Counted from the stretch's first letter, positions 32,818-43,945 are shown. The stretch: 64,000 nt of DNA from Burkholderiales bacterium (GCA_947377275.1 CANCFV010000005.1:1-64000); one strand, 5' to 3'. Program-made: numbers and translations. The notes: a model not told the origin generated them from the sequence alone.

Positions 32818-33075
32818 TCAGTGCGTGCGACGCTGAGGCGCTTGGTAACCACCGCGCTCGATGTGGCGGAAGGTGATGCGACCCTTGCTCAGATCGTAAG
32901 GAGACAGCTCCAGAGAGACCTTGTCACCCGCCAAGATGCGGATGTGGTGCTTCTTCATCTTGCCCGAGGTGTAGGCGATCAGTTGGTGGCCGTTTTCCAG
33001 GGTGACGCGGAAACGCGAGTCCGGCAGGACTTCGTTCACAACGCCATTCATTTCGATCAGTTCTTCCTTGGCCAT
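32818..33075 (-). CDS. infA: Translation initiation factor IF-1 (second-copy type)
   Basis: An 85-residue IF-1: an S1-type OB fold that binds the ribosomal A site during initiation. The family core is plain ([49 protein letters not shown]). It carries a basic C-terminal tail (QAPQRRTH) beyond the usual 72 residues. The start is the internal ATG; the 147-residue tracked ORF includes leader. It stands alone, away from ribosomal protein genes, as expected of the second infA copy of many Burkholderiales. Its stop lies three bases from that of the convergent LysR gene. Confidence 0.93.
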
Positions 33076-33317
33076 GTACAGGGGCTCCAGTTGGGGATCT
33101 CGGACCCCCAGGGCGTCAGACACTGTTTTTGCAATGGCCTGTTCGGAAGAGGTCGATGGTGATATAAGTCGAGACTGGCGAATGTAGCACGCTTGGCCCT
33201 GTGTCGTCAAAGTGCGGCCTTGGTACTCCTTGTAGGTGCATGCCTTGGCCCAGGCCTGCAAGCACGCCCTGGGAGACTTGAAAAGGGTCTGGCCGAGCCG
33301 GGCGCTACAGTGCGCAG

Positions 33318-34571: not shown

Positions 34572-34868
34572 TCAGTGGGGTTTGCGTGGGCCCTTGAAGG
34601 CTTCGGGCGTGTAGACGTTGCCTTCTTGGATGCCACGCGTGCGGCGGGCCCGCTCGATGGCGTCTTGCGTGGCTTGGGCCGCCACCTTGCGAGACGAACG
34701 CCAGTGCCACAGCATCCGCGCACGCCGCTGGGTGTTGGCCCACGCGGAGCGAAGCCACCGGTCCAGCCGGGCGCGGCGCTGGGCGCCAATCACCAAGCGC
34801 AACAACATGAACAAACAGGCCACGGCAATGGCCACGGCGATCCAGGCTTTGAGTTCCATGGTGGTCAT
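34572..34868 (-). CDS. Small membrane-anchored protein, unknown function
   Basis: A 98-residue protein with one N-terminal membrane helix (AWIAVAIAVACLFMLLRLVIGA) and a strongly basic, tryptophan-containing cytoplasmic tail. I do not recognise a family. It starts with ATG 34868, 31 bases after the stop of the PstS-like gene, and may be the last gene of the large minus-strand signalling operon. Confidence 0.6.
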   Translation of the reverse strand: MTTMELKAWIAVAIAVACLFMLLRLVIGAQRRARLDRWLRSAWANTQRRARMLWHWRSSRKVAAQATQDAIERARRTRGIQEGNVYTPEAFKGPRKPH

Positions 34869-34899
34869 CGTAGCGCGGCTCAGGTGGCGGCGGTGGACA

Positions 34900-35319
34900 T
34901 CATTTGCGCAACAAGACACTGACGGACGGGGTCACCTCGGTCTCGTCCACATAGGCCACCGCACCCGGGGTCGCGGCCACGACCGACAGCACCTCAGAGG
35001 CCGGCCCGAGCTCGCGCGGCGGCACCCCCTTGCCCACGTAGCGACGCACCGTCCAATAAGCCACGTAGCCGTCCTCGTTTTGCTGCAGGTAGTCGCTCAG
35101 GAAGCGCTGGCGCAGCACCTGCCCTGGCGGTGCATTGATCGGCACGATGGGCACACCGCCCACCTCGACCACCTTGCCGGTGAAGATGCGCTGCACGGTG
35201 AGCACATCGAGCTTGCGCAGCCCAGGGTGCCCCACCACGACCACGCCGGCTTGGGCCTGGGCGGCACACAGGCAGGTCAGGCACAAGGCCGTTTTGACGA
35301 TCAGGCGAAGGCCTTTCAT
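34900..35319 (-). CDS. Small PstS-like periplasmic substrate-binding protein
   Basis: A 139-residue exported protein with a signal peptide ending at AQAQA. It contains one lobe of a type II phosphate-binding-protein fold (VQRIFTGKVVEV...INAPPGQVLRQRFL). Full PstS proteins are over twice this long, so it is a compact family rather than a broken gene: it has its own signal peptide and a clean C-terminus. It lies 12 bases after a porin gene and downstream of a histidine kinase/HD-GYP pair, which suggests ligand sensing rather than ABC transport; no ABC permease or ATPase is nearby. Confidence 0.8.
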   Translation of the reverse strand: MKGLRLIVKTALCLTCLCAAQAQAGVVVVGHPGLRKLDVLTVQRIFTGKVVEVGGVPIVPINAPPGQVLRQRFLSDYLQQNEDGYVAYWTVRRYVGKGVPPRELGPASEVLSVVAATPGAVAYVDETEVTPSVSVLLRK

Positions 35320-35331
35320 GGCGAGCCCCCG

Positions 35332-36627
35332 TCAGAACGCGAAGTTGTAGGACAGCGAGTACACGTCGATGTCCCCGTGGTTGAAGGTGGCCTGCCCACG
35401 CTGGACTTCGACCATCGCCGATCGCTTGCCCACGCGCGTTCGCATCCACTCGCCTTTGAGCTTGCTTTGCGGGCTCAGCGCGTACGAGACGCCCACCGCC
35501 AGCGAGGTCTCATCGTGGTTGTAAATCGAATCGGCCGCCGCGCGCTGCGACAGATTGATCTGGTCGGCCTCGGGGACCACGCCGGGCACGTTGACGGCAT
35601 CGAGCGACTCGGCCACGCGCATGGGGGCGCCCAGGCTGCGCAAGTGCGCGACGGTGACGTAGGGGGTGAAGCTCGCCATCTGGTGCAGCACGGTGATGTA
35701 GCCACCCGCGGTGTTGGCGCCCACGTCGGTTTTGTGCTGGACGTTGCGCGCCAACTCGGTGACCACACGCCACTGCGGGGCCACCGCGATGTCTGCCCCC
35801 ACGGTGATGACGTCGTTCACGATGCGGTCGGTTTTGCCCACGCGCGGGTCGTTGGGGCTCACGGCGTAGTAGGCGCCATCGACAAACGGGAAGCTGCTGG
35901 GGAAAGGCTGCCCATTGAGCGCGCGGCTGACCGCGTGGTAGACGCTGGCCCGCAGGGTGCTGCCCGCGTCGAGCTTGAGACTCAGGGCCATGCCGGTGGC
36001 CTGGGTCTTGACGTGCTTGAACTGCGCCCCCAAATCACGCGAGTAGGTGCGCACATCGAGCTCGCCGCTGCCCACGTAGGCATCGAGGTTCCACTCGCCC
36101 AGCTCGCTGAACCAGGCGCGCGAGACGGACAAGCCCGTCAGGTCGGTGCGGGAGGCGATCGCGTAGACCTCAGCCGGCAAACGCAGAGGCTCGTAGGTCA
36201 CGCCCACGTCGCGGTTCTCGGTGTGCAAGAACAAGGGCAGGCGCTGTTTGCCCAGGCGCAGCAACCAGTCGTTGCCTGGTCGCCAGGACACGAAAGCCCA
36301 AGTGGCTTGCATGGCCAACTTGTCGTCATCGGACATGGACGGCGCCACCGTGGCTTGCACCGTGGCAGACCACTCCGGGTTGAGGCGTGCGTCGAGTTGG
36401 CCGCCCACGATCGAATCGCGCTTGAGGGTGCCGCGGCGGTCGATGAAGCGCTGGAACGTGGCCTCTTGGTTGGACTGCGCCCAACCCACCGTGCCAAAGC
36501 CCGAGAAGGACACCTCTTGGGCCTGTGCGCCGTTCGTGGCGCAAACCAGGGCGAGCGCGGCGCTGACACTCAGCGCCGCACGGCCGAGGTGCTGGCAAGA
36601 CAAAGCGGAGACCAGGTGCTGCTTCAT
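35332..36627 (-). CDS. Outer-membrane porin-like beta-barrel protein
   Basis: A 431-residue protein with a signal peptide ending near NGAQAQ and a beta-barrel of alternating amphipathic strands, ending in the C-terminal phenylalanine motif SLSYNFAF. The start is ATG 36627 (MKQHLVSAL); the tracked ORF includes 34 extra residues. Sequence style (FSGFGTVGWAQSN, then DARLNPEWSATVQ) fits general porin-like families; substrate unknown. It lies 67 bases downstream of the HD-GYP regulator and directly before the PstS-like gene. Confidence 0.8.
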   Translation of the reverse strand: MKQHLVSALSCQHLGRAALSVSAALALVCATNGAQAQEVSFSGFGTVGWAQSNQEATFQRFIDRRGTLKRDSIVGGQLDARLNPEWSATVQATVAPSMSDDDKLAMQATWAFVSWRPGNDWLLRLGKQRLPLFLHTENRDVGVTYEPLRLPAEVYAIASRTDLTGLSVSRAWFSELGEWNLDAYVGSGELDVRTYSRDLGAQFKHVKTQATGMALSLKLDAGSTLRASVYHAVSRALNGQPFPSSFPFVDGAYYAVSPNDPRVGKTDRIVNDVITVGADIAVAPQWRVVTELARNVQHKTDVGANTAGGYITVLHQMASFTPYVTVAHLRSLGAPMRVAESLDAVNVPGVVPEADQINLSQRAAADSIYNHDETSLAVGVSYALSPQSKLKGEWMRTRVGKRSAMVEVQRGQATFNHGDIDVYSLSYNFAF

Positions 36628-36694
36628 GGCGTTCGGGATGGGGTGCGTGGCAGGATGCGAAGGGTGTGCCGCGAGGTGTGCGGCGCGGTGTCGT

Positions 36695-37788
<1,094 letters not shown>

Positions 37789-37792
<4 letters not shown>

Positions 37793-40700
37793 GAAGGCTG
37801 CCTTTCAGGGTCGGTGTCTTGCGGCAAGTCGAGCTCAGCCAGCAGGCCGAAGGCCGAGTCAAAGTCGCAGCGCTCCAGCGCAGTGTGCAAACGCGATGCG
37901 GTCATGGGAGGCAGCCACGAGGCGAAGGCCACACGGTTTTCTCGCCACAGCGCCAGGGCCTCGCTGTCGCATTCGGCGGCCAGGTGCCTCAGGCGCAGCG
38001 CCATCTGCACATCAAAGGGCGTGGCCGCCTGTCGATGGCCCGGCTGGGCCGACGAGGCCGGGTCTGCGGTGGCCTGCAGATGCGCCCGCAAAGCCACGTT
38101 CAAACGGCCGAGCGTCAGCATCACCGCATCGGCTTCGCGTTGGCTGGCAGACAGGTTGTATGACAAAACGGCGTTCTCCCAAACGGCAGCCTGCTGGTTC
38201 AGGACCGCATGGCCAATGGTGCCGGCCAGGCCCTTGAGGGTGTGAGACTCGCGCGCCAGCAGGGCCCAGTCGGCCTGGGCTTCGGTCTCGGCATCGGCCA
38301 GGGCCTGGGGCAGGCTGTCGCACAGCGCCTCAGTGTGTCGAACAAAGGCCTCCAGCGTCAGGCGGTAAAGCCCTTGGTCACCCTCCATGCGGGACAAGGC
38401 CAGCGCGGTGTCCAGCCCGGGGATGTCTGACAAGGCGGGGCCTGCGACGCGCATGGCGGGCCGACCGGTGTGGCCAGGGAACTCTTGCAACGGCATGAGC
38501 AGCGTGGGCGGCATGTCGATTCGGTGCGGCACGTAAGGCGCCAAGGCGGCATAGAGCGCGGTGGGCTCGATGGGCTTGCTCACATGGCCGCGCATCCCGA
38601 GGGCCAGGCAACGCTGGCGCTCTTCGACCATGGCGTGGGCCGTCATGGCCAGGATGGGCACGTCGCGCAGAGCCGGGTCGCTGCGGATGATGCGGGTGGC
38701 CTCATAGCCATCCATCACGGGCATCTGCAGGTCCATCAACACCACGTCACAGCCATGGGGGCCGAGTTGACGCAAGCGCTCCAAGGCCTCGCTGCCATTG
38801 GCCGCGACGTCCACGCGCGCACCGCGCCGACACAACAGCTCAGTGGCCAATTGCTGGTTGAGCGCGTTGTCTTCAACCAGCAGCACGCGCAAGCCATCCA
38901 GGCGCTGGGTGTCCACCACGTGCACAGCGCCACGGGCTGGCAAGGACTCACCACTTTGCAGGCGAATGAGCACCCCGCGCACCGCCTCGGGCAAGATCGG
39001 CTTGGGCAAAAACGCCTCGGCGCCCAAGCGCATGACCTGCTCACCCAGCGAGTCCCAGCCATAGGCCGACACCACGACCACATGGGTCATGGGGTGGCGT
39101 TGACGCAGTTGCCGCAGCGCCTGTGCGCCATCCATGCGTGGCAACACCCAGTCCAGCAAGACCAGGTCAAACGGCGCGCCATCGGCTTGTGCGGCCTCCG
39201 CCATCGCCAAGGCCGACTCGCCATCGCGGGCGCTTTGCACCGGGCTCACCGAAGCCCCCACCCCCATGGCCATGAGCAAGGTGCACAGGGCTTGGCGTGC
39301 TTCGGCGTGGTCGTCCACCACCAGCACCCGCATGCGCGAGACATCGACCGCGCCCAAGGGCATGGGGCTGTGCTCGGCTCGCCGCAAAGGCAGGCGCAGG
39401 CTGAACAGCGAGCCCTGCCCGCTCTGGCTGCTGACCACGATGTCGCCGCCCATCATGCGGGCCAAGCGCTGACTGATGCTCAGGCCCAGACCAGTGCCAC
39501 CGTAGCGCCGCGTGGTGGAGCCATCGGCCTGCGTGAACTCCTGGAACAGGCGATCGACTTGCTCAAGCGTCATGCCGATGCCGGTGTCGCTCACGTCAAA
39601 GTGCAGCTGCAAGACGTCGGACTGACGCGAGGCCAGCGACACGGCCAGCTTCACGTGCCCGTGGTGCGTGAACTTCACGGCATTGGAGACCAAGTTGGTG
39701 AGGATCTGCACCACGCGCAAGGCATCGCCATGGACCATGCTGGCCTCGCCCAACAGCACCGGGTCATTGAAGGTGCACAGCAGTTCAACGTCTTTGTCTT
39801 GCGCGGTCTGGCGCAAGAGCATGAGCGTGTTGCCCACCACGTCTTCCAATAAGAAGGGAGCCGATTCGAGTTCGAGCTTGCCCGCTTCGATCTTGGAAAA
39901 ATCCAGGATGTCATTGATCACGCCCAGCAAGATGCCCGAGGCCGATTGCACCTTGGTGAGGTAGTCGCGCTGCTGCGCGTCCAGCGGGGTTTGCAAGGCC
40001 AAATGGGTCATGCCCAGGATGGAGTTCATCGGCGTGCGGATTTCGTGGCTCATGTTGGCCAGGAACATGGACTTGGCTTCGGTGGCGGCCTCGGCCTCGT
40101 CACGCGCATCCCTGAGCTGAGCCTGCACGCGCTCGCGCTGCTCCAGCTCGGCCTGCACCGCGTGCGCCATGGTGTTGAGCGCCACGCCCAGGGTGTCCAG
40201 CTCATGCAACCACTGGCGCCGCCCCCCCGCGCGCGCCGCGTAGTCGCCATCGGCCAGCTGCTGCGCCACCCGGCTGAGGCGCTCCACCGGGCTGAGCAGG
40301 CGCTTGCGAACCACATCCAGCGCCAGGAACAAGGCCGGCAACAGGCACAGGTTGATGAACAGGGTCAAGCCGATGTAGCGGTCGAGTTGGGTGGACGCGG
40401 CTTCCCGCTCGCGCTCGGTGCGCTGGTCAGCCGCATGGCTGAGGGCGGCCACCGCCTGCGCCAACACCGCAGCCTGGCGCTCATAGGCCGGGGCATGCAC
40501 CAGCTCACGCGCGTAATTCAGGTCAGGCTCGCCTTCCGAGACATAGGCCTTCAGCTTGCGGTCGTACAGCCCTTGGGTGGCGGCAAAAGCCACTTGTTCG
40601 CTCTTTTTGAGCACCTCGCCGGCCTTGAGCACCTCGCTCACCGCCGCCAGTTCGGTGGCACTGAAGTCCAGGGCTTTCATGCGCGCCACCAAGGGCTGGC

Positions 40701-41061
40701 CCTGCAAGCCAGGCGGGATTTCGTGCCGGCGAAGCCCTGCGATCACCTCGTCCCAATAGGCCGACTCGTCCACCGCCACCGGGGCCGGCTTGCTGCCCTC
40801 ACGGATGGCCAACACGTCGTAGTAGTACAGCAGGTAGCGTGGCTCGCCCGTGGCCGTGTACGAGCCAACGAGGCGCCGCAGCAAGGCCGTCTCGCGCTGC
40901 AACTGGGCCACGAGGTGCAAGGTGTCATCGCGTCGCTCGACCGCCTGCGTGACCGAGACATAAGCGCCACGGATCAACACCAGAAAGACAAAGTTGGCCA
41001 AGACCCCAACGACCAGCGCCGAGATGAACCACCGCGACACGATCCTCAGCTTCAAGGCCAT
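37789..41061 (-). CDS. Hybrid sensor histidine kinase (HAMP-HisKA-HATPase-REC-REC-HPt)
   Basis: A 1090-residue membrane phosphorelay kinase. Order: helix (about 10-32), helical periplasmic sensor of about 170 residues, second helix, HAMP ([19 protein letters not shown]), HisKA with [16 protein letters not shown] near residue 337, and HATPase ([14 protein letters not shown]). Receiver 1 follows ([11 protein letters not shown], about 634), then receiver 2 ([11 protein letters not shown], about 775) and HPt ([12 protein letters not shown], about 939). All phosphotransfer residues are present. The true start is ATG 41061, overlapping the upstream GGDEF gene by 10 bases; the tracked 1216-residue ORF is extended upstream. 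The HPt is expected to pass phosphate to the overlapping HD-GYP regulator. Confidence 0.95.
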
Positions 41062-42254
41062 GACGCGGCCTCCTCGCTGGCCGAGGTCGATGCGAACGCG
41101 ACGGAGGCCACGATGCGGTCGCGCCCAGCCAGCTTGGCTTGGTAGAGGTTGCGGTCGGCCACTTTCAAGGCCCATTCGGTGTCGCCGTCGACCACCTGTG
41201 CCACGCCCACGCTCTGCGTGACCCTGAGGGGGCGGCCATCGACGATCACATGCTGTTCGCGCAAAGCCACGGCGATTTTCTCGGCCACGTGGATGGCGCC
41301 ATGCACATCGGTCTCGGGCAAGAGCAGCACAAACTCTTCGCCGCCGTAACGGGCGGCGGTGTCGACCGCTTCGCGGGTCGAGGCACGCAAGATGCGTCCG
41401 ATGTGGGCCAGCACCGCGTCGCCAGCAGGGTGGCCCCAACGGTCGTTGACTTGCTTGAAGTGGTCTACGTCACACAGCACCACCGACAAAGGGCGACCAC
41501 TGCGGGCGTGCCGATGCGACTCGCGCTGCAAACAGGTCATGAACTCGCGCCGGTTGGCCAGGCCGGTGAGCGCATCGGTGCGCACCAGCGTTTCGAGCTC
41601 ACGGCTGCGGCGGTGCACGGTGCCGGCCAGGTAAAACAACATGCCTGAAAAAGGCAAGGCCGCCGCGTTGAACACCAGGCGCACCCACAAGGCCCACCAA
41701 GGCGCCAACTCACCGCCCATGGCAATGGGATGGCTGAGCATGGGCGAAGCGGGGAGCAGCCCCATGCTCGTCAGCACCTCAGCGCCCACCACGATCACCA
41801 GGGCGCCGCCAAACGCCCAACACAGGCGCCTCAAGGTGAACAGCGCACGGGCCCCCACCAGGGCGACCAGCAGCATCATGCCCATCGGCGAGTCTTTCAA
41901 GCCATGTGCCACCGACAGCCAGGCCATGCCCCACAGCGCCGGCACCACGGTGGCTTGCACCAGCCAAGGCATGCGCTCCTCGCAACGCCGGTGGCGCCAG
42001 CCCAAGCACCCCATGGCCGCAAGCCATGCCAGCAGCGCGGCCTGCAGCCACAGCGCGGGCACCATCCACTCGCTGCGGTAATGTTGGCTGGCCCATGGGT
42101 GGGCGGCTGCATACAGCTGCATCAAGCACAACAAGGCCAAGGGGGGCCACAGGGCCACCACCAAGACCAAGCAACTGCTGCCATGCCTGCGGTGCACGAT
42201 GGCCGCATCGATCTGGGTCAATGCGCCCCGGTAGAGGGCCGACAAACGCCTCAT
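41052..42254 (-). CDS. Membrane diguanylate cyclase (GGDEF)
   Basis: A 400-residue protein with about six membrane helices (about 25-215) and a C-terminal GGDEF domain. The catalytic signature YGGEEF lies near residue 303, with the substrate-binding [14 protein letters not shown] before it. The position of the inhibitory RxxD is EAVD, so product inhibition is probably absent. It starts at ATG 42254, overlapping the stop of the preceding GGDEF gene by four bases, and overlaps the hybrid kinase start by 10 bases. Confidence 0.92.
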
Positions 42255-43399
42255 GCGCCCTCCGCCGCCACATCGGGCACACACACGCGGTCACGGCCAG
42301 TGGCCTTGGCGCGGTAGAGCTGTTCATCGGCCAGACGCATCAGGGTCGGCAAGTCCTGACCCCGACGGCCTTCGACCACGCCCATGCTCAGGCTCAAGCA
42401 GAAAGCACCGTGGGCGCCGACAAAGGCATGTTGTCGACACTGTGCGCCCAAGCGCTCGCCAATGCGCTGCGCCTGCTCAAGCCGGGTGTCGGGCAAGATC
42501 AAGGCGAACTCCTCGCCACCGATGCGGCACGCCGTGTCGGTGGGGCTGCGCACCTGCGTCATCATCCAGTTGGCCAAGGTCCGCAACACCTCGTCGCCAA
42601 CGCCGTGGCCATGGGTGTCGTTGACCTGCTTGAAGTGGTCGGCGTCAATGAAGATCAGGCTGAGCGGCTCGCCACTGCGATCGCGCCGCGCCAGTTCGGC
42701 CTGCAGCGCCTCCATGAATCGGCGGCGGTTGGCCAGGCCCGTGAGGCCATCGGTGTAAGACAGGTGCGAGAGCCTTTGATGCAGATCGTCCAGGCGGTCA
42801 AACAGCACCAGCAGCAAGACCAGCGGCACGGCATAACCGGCCGTCACCACGCCCTGGCGCCACCACGCAAACCACCACACGGGCTTGCCCGCATCCAGCA
42901 CCTCAGGGCGCAAGGCCGGCGCGTAAGGCACCCAACCGGCGAGCACGCCCAGGTCATATGCGCTGAGCACGGCCACGCAGGTGGCGTAGGTCCAGACCAT
43001 GGGTTTGCGCTCAAACAGCAGCAAGCCGACCACCAGCACCGCCATCAAAACCAGGTTGGTGCTGGAGGTGAAGGTGCCGGCCAGGACGGTGATCCAGGTG
43101 TAGGTCAAGCCTATGCTCTGGCACACCAGCAAGGTCTCCGTGGGCACCGGGTCACGCTGGTGTCGAACGGGCCACAAGCGCCACGCCACCACCCAGGTGA
43201 CCACGCTGGCCACCAGCACTAGGGCCTGCAAACCCCACATGAACGGCGTGCGCAAGGCCGAGCTGACGGCTGGTGTGGCCAAGGCCCAGCCGTGCGCCAC
43301 CAGGATGGCCACGAAAAACGGGGCCGCAAAAAACACCGCCAGCAACACACGCCAAGCGGGGGTTGAACTCAGGGCAAAGCGCTCAAGCAAGCTGTTCAT
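42251..43399 (-). CDS. Membrane diguanylate cyclase (GGDEF), first gene of the signalling operon
   Basis: A 382-residue protein with about six helices (about 15-205) and a GGDEF domain: [15 protein letters not shown] and IGGEEF near residue 292. The inhibitory site is degenerate (SPTD). It resembles the next gene in layout but not closely in the membrane part, so an old duplication is possible. As the first of four genes linked by overlapping codons it probably sets the expression of the kinase and HD-GYP regulator; its promoter must lie in 43400-43576, shared with the divergent membrane protein gene. Confidence 0.92.
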   Translation of the reverse strand: MNSLLERFALSSTPAWRVLLAVFFAAPFFVAILVAHGWALATPAVSSALRTPFMWGLQALVLVASVVTWVVAWRLWPVRHQRDPVPTETLLVCQSIGLTYTWITVLAGTFTSSTNLVLMAVLVVGLLLFERKPMVWTYATCVAVLSAYDLGVLAGWVPYAPALRPEVLDAGKPVWWFAWWRQGVVTAGYAVPLVLLLVLFDRLDDLHQRLSHLSYTDGLTGLANRRRFMEALQAELARRDRSGEPLSLIFIDADHFKQVNDTHGHGVGDEVLRTLANWMMTQVRSPTDTACRIGGEEFALILPDTRLEQAQRIGERLGAQCRQHAFVGAHGAFCLSLSMGVVEGRRGQDLPTLMRLADEQLYRAKATGRDRVCVPDVAAEGA

Positions 43400-43576: not shown

Positions 43577-43945
43577 ATGAAACTCATCGTGCGTTGGCTT
43601 TTGCTCGCGGCCGGACTGGTGGCCTTGACCCAGTGGAAACTCGGCGTGAGCGTGGCCGGGTTCGGCTCGGCGCTGTGGGCTGCTTTCGTGATCGGCCTGC
43701 TCAATGCCTTCGTGCGGCCGCTGCTGATCCTGCTGACGTTGCCGGTGACGGTGCTGACGCTGGGCTTGTTCCTATTCGTCATCAACGCGTTCACCTTCCA
43801 GATGGCGTCTGGTCTGCTGGACGGCTTTCAGGTCAGCAACTTTGGCGATGCCCTGCTGTGCTCGGTGCTTTACAGCTTGTGGGGCGTGGTCATCGACCGG
43901 GCGCTTGAGCCGCTGATGGGCTCGCGTCAGCCCCCGCTGATCTGA
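43577..43945 (+). CDS. YvlD / phage-holin-4-like small membrane protein
   Basis: A 122-residue membrane protein with four predicted helices and the pattern LNAFVRPLLILLTLPVTVLTLGLFLFVINAFTF that marks the PF04020 (YvlD) family. Despite the holin name these are chromosomal proteins of unknown function. ATG 43577 (MKLIVRWL) is preferred to the tracked start. Its stop is one base from that of the convergent LysR gene. Confidence 0.88.
   Translation: MKLIVRWLLLAAGLVALTQWKLGVSVAGFGSALWAAFVIGLLNAFVRPLLILLTLPVTVLTLGLFLFVINAFTFQMASGLLDGFQVSNFGDALLCSVLYSLWGVVIDRALEPLMGSRQPPLI

Follow-up and report, generated by a model that had tools for sequence, protein, structure and literature searches.

Receptors that are activated by a solute-binding protein (SBP) are well established, and it has been recognized that neighbouring SBP-kinase pairs do not always interact (PMC11113362). 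Here we describe a seven-gene locus on the minus strand of a 64,000-nucleotide stretch of DNA from a Burkholderiales bacterium (GCA_947377275.1, CANCFV010000005.1:1-64000; hereafter the window), which shares with such receptors a periplasmic binding protein gene linked to a receptor gene. The binding protein is a single-lobe relative of PstS, which we call mini-PstS, its gene lies directly behind that of a porin, and the receptor is a hybrid histidine kinase whose neighbour is an HD-GYP phosphodiesterase of cyclic di-GMP (c-di-GMP). We propose, with a probability of roughly 0.6, that the locus is a trans-envelope signalling module, in which the porin, a mini-PstS adaptor and an inner-membrane sensor, here the hybrid kinase, drive a phosphorelay onto the HD-GYP regulator.

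Several described systems resemble parts of this arrangement. The NspS-MbaA system of Vibrio cholerae, also found in Sinorhizobium meliloti, is similar in that a periplasmic binding protein, the norspermidine-binding NspS, signals to a membrane c-di-GMP enzyme. NspS is a full-length, two-lobe, PotD-like protein. NspS-MbaA is not known to have a dedicated porin, whereas the locus described here combines a porin with a single PstS lobe and, in the case of the window, with a kinase. TorT-TorS, LuxP-LuxQ and XylFII-LytS are alike in that a periplasmic binding protein docks on a (hybrid) kinase, whose sensor is helical or PAS-like, but they use full two-lobe binding proteins and are not known to include a porin. 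In the RcsF-OMP-IgaA-RcsC pathway, an outer-membrane barrel and a periplasmic component inform a hybrid-kinase phosphorelay. The likeness to our cassette lies in the barrel, the periplasmic part and the hybrid kinase, and the difference in the lack of a PstS-like part, since RcsF is a lipoprotein and IgaA acts as a brake in the inner membrane. YfiBNR of Pseudomonas aeruginosa likewise exerts tripartite outer-membrane, periplasmic and inner-membrane control of c-di-GMP, but YfiR bears no likeness to PstS, and YfiB belongs to the OmpA-type lipoproteins rather than to the porins; neither the YfiR (DUF4154) nor the YfiB family is among the Pfam matches of the seven genes. Among three-layer designs for c-di-GMP control, YfiBNR comes closest (PMC4655355). 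Neither the SBP-activated receptors nor YfiBNR is known to combine a porin and a single PstS lobe, and a survey of SBPs mentions neither porins nor PstS (PMC9602780). Compared with the PstS phosphate-binding proteins, mini-PstS shares the fold of one lobe and the sequence profile, but it is half the size, has lost the phosphate loop and is encoded without PstCAB at the locus. We found no description of a porin/mini-PstS module in the open-licence literature, a scope that makes this absence weak evidence.

Results

The pairing of the porin with mini-PstS is near-obligate. Mini-PstS occurs in 58 of 399 genomes of the phylum, as judged with a profile of the close subfamily, and in 45 of 201 genomes of the family with a wider profile. 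Among 106 distinct mini-PstS collected across Pseudomonadota, 103 have an adjoining porin on the same strand, which lies upstream in 85 and downstream in 18. When these 201 family genomes were searched separately with a porin profile, 67 porins were returned, every one of which (67/67) has a mini-PstS within 1.5 kb. Counted by genome, 40 have both genes, 5 have mini-PstS only, none has the porin alone and 156 have neither (Fisher p=5e-37, uncorrected for relatedness). From the side of mini-PstS, a porin is found within 300 bp of 59 of the 74 matches and within 1.5 kb of 67, and the remaining seven are mostly weak matches on contigs on which no porin was seen. The porin profile was built from paired porins and may be biased towards pair-associated ones; its scores ran from 448 down to 56 bits, and still no unpaired porin appeared. 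Long reading frames in several loci had suggested porin-mini-PstS fusions, but these proved to be overlapping out-of-frame open reading frames. On two large Alteromonas plasmids (L072, L074) the pair immediately adjoins a type IV CRISPR (csf) locus.

Outside the window lineage the pair is found next to chemoreceptors, GGDEF proteins, GGDEF-EAL proteins or other kinases, and 43 of 77 pairs that are not of the window type have a same-strand signalling gene within 1.7 kb. There are 47 such genes within this distance versus 3, 5 and 1 in the next three bins of equal width, a profile that places the signalling neighbours above background. These counts bear on an explanation by chance neighbours or plain lineage inheritance, in which a c-di-GMP operon would lie by accident in front of a porin and a PstS fragment. 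The seven genes are indeed inherited together within Aquabacterium. However, the association spans families and classes and lies far above the local background, and the distance profile, the 67/67 pairing and the mini-PstS tree described below all contradict this explanation, which we regard as very improbable.

The neighbouring sensors, compared after cutting to their periplasmic loops, fall, apart from some singletons, into six main classes, and the classes share no detectable similarity. One sensor domain common to all partners was ruled out; an apparent single cluster vanished once a cytoplasmic-side HAMP stretch had been removed. The trees of mini-PstS and of the porin follow these sensor-domain classes, not taxonomy or output. 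The mini-PstS tree, which has 108 rows (69 with sensor-class labels), short sequences and many weak branches, requires 6 changes for the six classes, while label shuffles within families gave a mean of 21.4 and never fell below 16 (0/500 as low). The porin tree requires 5 changes, the least possible for six classes; within-family shuffles averaged 19.8 and went no lower than 13 (0/500 as low). One class, which we label CHASE8-like from its sequence although Pfam gave no such name, comes with histidine kinase, GGDEF and GGDEF-EAL outputs and yet groups together in the mini-PstS tree, indicating that the sensor and not the output is tracked. In two loci (L118, L119) a GGDEF response regulator, the porin, mini-PstS and a hybrid kinase with a CHASE8-like sensor are followed by two REC genes, which looks like an independent kinase-type cassette.

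The main alternative is that the porin and mini-PstS are a regulated output. The pair would be a channel together with a dedicated factor that assembles, plugs or gates it, its expression would be set by the adjoining sensor, and mini-PstS would serve the porin only. The bond between porin and mini-PstS is the tightest of all, as seen in the 67/67 pairing and, across window-type cassettes, in distances taken after removing the kinase core, where mini-PstS has a partial correlation of 0.72 with the porin versus 0.51 with the sensor (values without a significance test); many pairs also have no sensor nearby. Nevertheless, we consider this alternative unlikely, because the chemoreceptor, GGDEF and GGDEF-EAL partners are not transcription regulators acting in cis, and because both trees track the sensor-domain class even where outputs differ. 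Chemoreceptors, GGDEF proteins and EAL proteins exert no control over adjacent promoters, and that they recur beside the pair would therefore speak for an input and not for a regulated target.

In close relatives of the window, the order kinase - (HD-GYP) - porin - mini-PstS is held wherever the contig permits (19 contig loci and 8 family genomes), and a hybrid kinase stands beside the pair in all testable cases of the window lineage, in Burkholderiales, Zoogloeaceae and Chromatiaceae. Aquabacterium commune DSM 11901 is among the organisms that carry the cassette (L037). The sensor domains of window-type kinases form one family. When the 201 family and 399 phylum genomes were searched with this domain, all strong matches (225 bits or more, together with the split G047) were in genomes with an adjacent pair, the sole exception being G187, in which the contig ends there; the weaker relatives are chemoreceptors and other proteins that have no porin/mini-PstS pair in the loci looked at. 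The HD-GYP regulator is part of most Burkholderiales cassettes of the window type and is absent from the Zoogloea and Chromatium versions and from two family loci (L052, L057). Homologues of the two cyclases upstream of the kinase, and of the small membrane protein, are found in Aquabacterium-group loci only. The gap between the small membrane protein and the cassette varies from about 40 to 550 bp in relatives, and this gene probably stands outside the cassette core. Chromatium okenii has the porin/mini-PstS pair duplicated in tandem (L044:8626-12181), and in a Zoogloea locus one mini-PstS is preceded by two tandem porins (L046:7281-10429). A preliminary description of the locus had named a lack of co-occurrence in related genomes as what would refute a conserved set of porin, PstS-like and kinase genes; these genes do co-occur, and their order is kept across relatives. 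Its designation of the locus as a c-di-GMP operon has to be modified, because the conserved core is the porin/mini-PstS pair plus one of several sensors and not a c-di-GMP operon as such, with the cyclases confined to the Aquabacterium group. We found no evidence for the surface sensing that it also proposed.

The mini-PstS of the window has no Pfam match of its own, and 4 of 39 family members match PBP_like_2. A family profile matches PstS chains (E=2.8e-6 and weaker), and the structural model, with a predicted local distance difference test (pLDDT) score of 95.5, matches one PstS lobe in Foldseek (E=1.9e-7, template modelling score 0.75 by query length). The mature protein of about 116 residues aligns to a single lobe of PstS proteins of 260-320 residues and has no two-lobe cleft. 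The phosphate loop of PstS is gone, NRAAGSGSR (4exl) being replaced by dlpegsalr in the family profile and by NAPPGQVLR in the window; in Escherichia coli PstS, phosphate is bound by an Arg and the SGT/SGS loop. Residues kept in the close subfamily are R47, F50, W66, R69, G73-K74-G75 and P77-P78. As had been noticed before, there is no ABC transporter gene among the seven genes or the tested flanking genes (MFS, LysR, holin-like, IF-1), nor is PstCAB encoded at the locus. Phosphate sensing is disfavoured by the lost loop and the lack of Pst genes at the locus. The porin is weakly recognised by Pfam (Porin_4, E=1e-4, below the cut-off) and gave no match in a PDB search.

These features also bear on a further alternative, in which mini-PstS is an ordinary ligand-presenting SBP, as NspS is for MbaA, and the porin merely admits the ligand. 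Mini-PstS is derived from a binding-protein lobe, the kinase sensor weakly resembles LytS as it occurs in the XylFII-LytS complex, and adjacent genes encode the two partners in 10 of 11 characterised SBP-kinase pairs (PMC11113362). However, a single lobe has no closing two-lobe cleft, and the loss of the phosphate loop makes a classical ligand-presenting PstS unlikely. In addition, six window-family genomes (L155-L160) encode, directly behind the porin, a fusion with a two-lobe SBP_bac_3 as its N-terminal part and mini-PstS as its C-terminal part (Pfam E 3.4e-9 to 2.8e-5 for SBP_bac_3 in four tested; two just below the curated cut-off), as if mini-PstS were not the binder. That an SBP_bac_3 unit can be bolted on suggests that mini-PstS is a coupling piece, and we consider the ligand-presenting role quite doubtful. 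The earlier idea that the porin and the binding protein feed the kinase is well founded as a functional association, given the conserved set of genes.

The features of the locus are listed in Table 1. All seven genes lie on the minus strand, with the overlaps and the 12-base porin/mini-PstS gap previously given for them. The overlaps are 4 bases between DGC1 and DGC2, 10 between DGC2 and the kinase and 4 between the kinase and the HD-GYP regulator, while gaps of 67, 12 and 31 bases follow the HD-GYP regulator, the porin and mini-PstS, respectively. Judged from these overlaps, it is plausible that the block is under one promoter. A scan of the minus strand found no promoter-like or terminator-like site between the HD-GYP and porin genes (36628-36694), but it found no sigma-70-like site in the whole 10 kb either, so its result on promoters says little. 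The flanking genes are ordinary, encoding IF-1 (minus strand, 32821-33261) and a small membrane protein of holin superfamily IV (plus strand, 43577-43942). The window comes from a draft assembly (86.9% complete, 6.2% contaminated), which clusters with Aquabacterium and encodes a single mini-PstS.

Table 1. Features of the porin/mini-PstS locus, from high to low coordinates (positions in the window)
Feature	Coordinates	Strand	Details
DGC1, membrane GGDEF diguanylate cyclase	42251..43399	(-)	382 aa; GGEEF active site; Pfam GGDEF
DGC2, membrane GGDEF diguanylate cyclase	41052..42254	(-)	400 aa; GGEEF; Pfam GGDEF
Hybrid histidine kinase	37789..41061	(-)	1090 aa; periplasmic sensor ~residues 33-227, HAMP, HisKA, HATPase_c, REC, REC, Hpt
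Modelled kinase sensor region	40327..40986	(-)	entirely helical, with long helices at both termini; resembles a four-helix bundle; without a Pfam family
Response regulator with HD-GYP c-di-GMP phosphodiesterase domain	36695..37792	(-)	365 aa; Response_reg and HD_5/HD
Porin, mini-PstS-associated family	35332..36627	(-)	431 aa; signal peptide
Mini-PstS, periplasmic single-lobe PstS-like protein	34900..35319	(-)	139 aa, ~116 mature
Small membrane protein (transmembrane)	34572..34868	(-)	98 aa

A Pfam search agrees with the assignment of two cyclases, a phosphorelay kinase and an HD-GYP regulator. The kinase matches HAMP, HisKA, HATPase_c, two Response_reg domains and Hpt, and has the motifs of a hybrid histidine kinase with Hpt, including the Asp of REC and the His of Hpt (SHEIRTP, LLDWVLP, LMDLQMP, SHTLKG). 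In the HD-GYP regulator (HD_5, E=5e-33) both the HD motif (HDIGK) and the GYP motif are intact, and this protein is the probable target of the kinase phosphorelay. The model of the kinase sensor is a bundle of long helices (pLDDT 91.9), and Tar, MCP2201 and the N-domain of LytS in the XylFII-LytS complex resemble its fold weakly (E 0.08 to 0.8), which is no more than suggestive. Translation bears out that both cyclases lack RxxD at the position of the inhibition site, which reads SPTD in DGC1 and EAVD in DGC2. In both, an Arg stands one residue too early (RSPTD and REAVD, window 41060-43399), a common oddity that may mean that product inhibition is altered.

Discussion

The results lead us to the following proposal for how the trans-envelope module may work. 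Mini-PstS probably works with its porin and probably informs the kinase, through the helical domain that the latter has in the periplasm, of pore opening, pore passage, pore occupancy or a ligand that comes in by the pore. Phosphate would then pass via His-REC-Hpt to the REC domain of the neighbouring HD-GYP phosphodiesterase, and the kinase would in this way lower or release c-di-GMP. In the Aquabacterium group, the locally acquired DGC1 and DGC2 would supply the opposing c-di-GMP synthesis. The analysis establishes the genes and their domains, the single-lobe fold without its phosphate loop, the near-obligate pairing, and the evolution of porin and mini-PstS along with the sensor domain and not with the output domain. 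Within this scheme we infer physical contact, the direction of the signal, a ligand, phosphotransfer to the HD-GYP regulator and co-transcription. Two observations weigh against the proposal. The kinases AgtS and AruS failed to bind the neighbouring SBPs tested (PMC11113362), so proximity of SBP and kinase genes is no proof of interaction. Furthermore, 34 of the 77 pairs that are not of the window type lack a signalling gene on their own strand within 1.7 kb, so that the pair may function independently of a sensor or its sensor may be encoded elsewhere.

Whether the porin and mini-PstS serve Pseudomonadota in general as a trans-envelope input device that has yet to be described is, in our judgement, evenly balanced. 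Public records label mini-PstS genes 'phosphate ABC transporter substrate-binding protein', and we caution against reading this annotation as phosphate uptake. It is a standing problem that many orphan chemoreceptors, kinases and c-di-GMP enzymes have signals still to be found, and a recurring porin with half a PstS is now tied to many of them. If the pair is indeed the input side, the receptor would include the outer-membrane pore, and for each orphan sensor the porin would offer a route to the signal.
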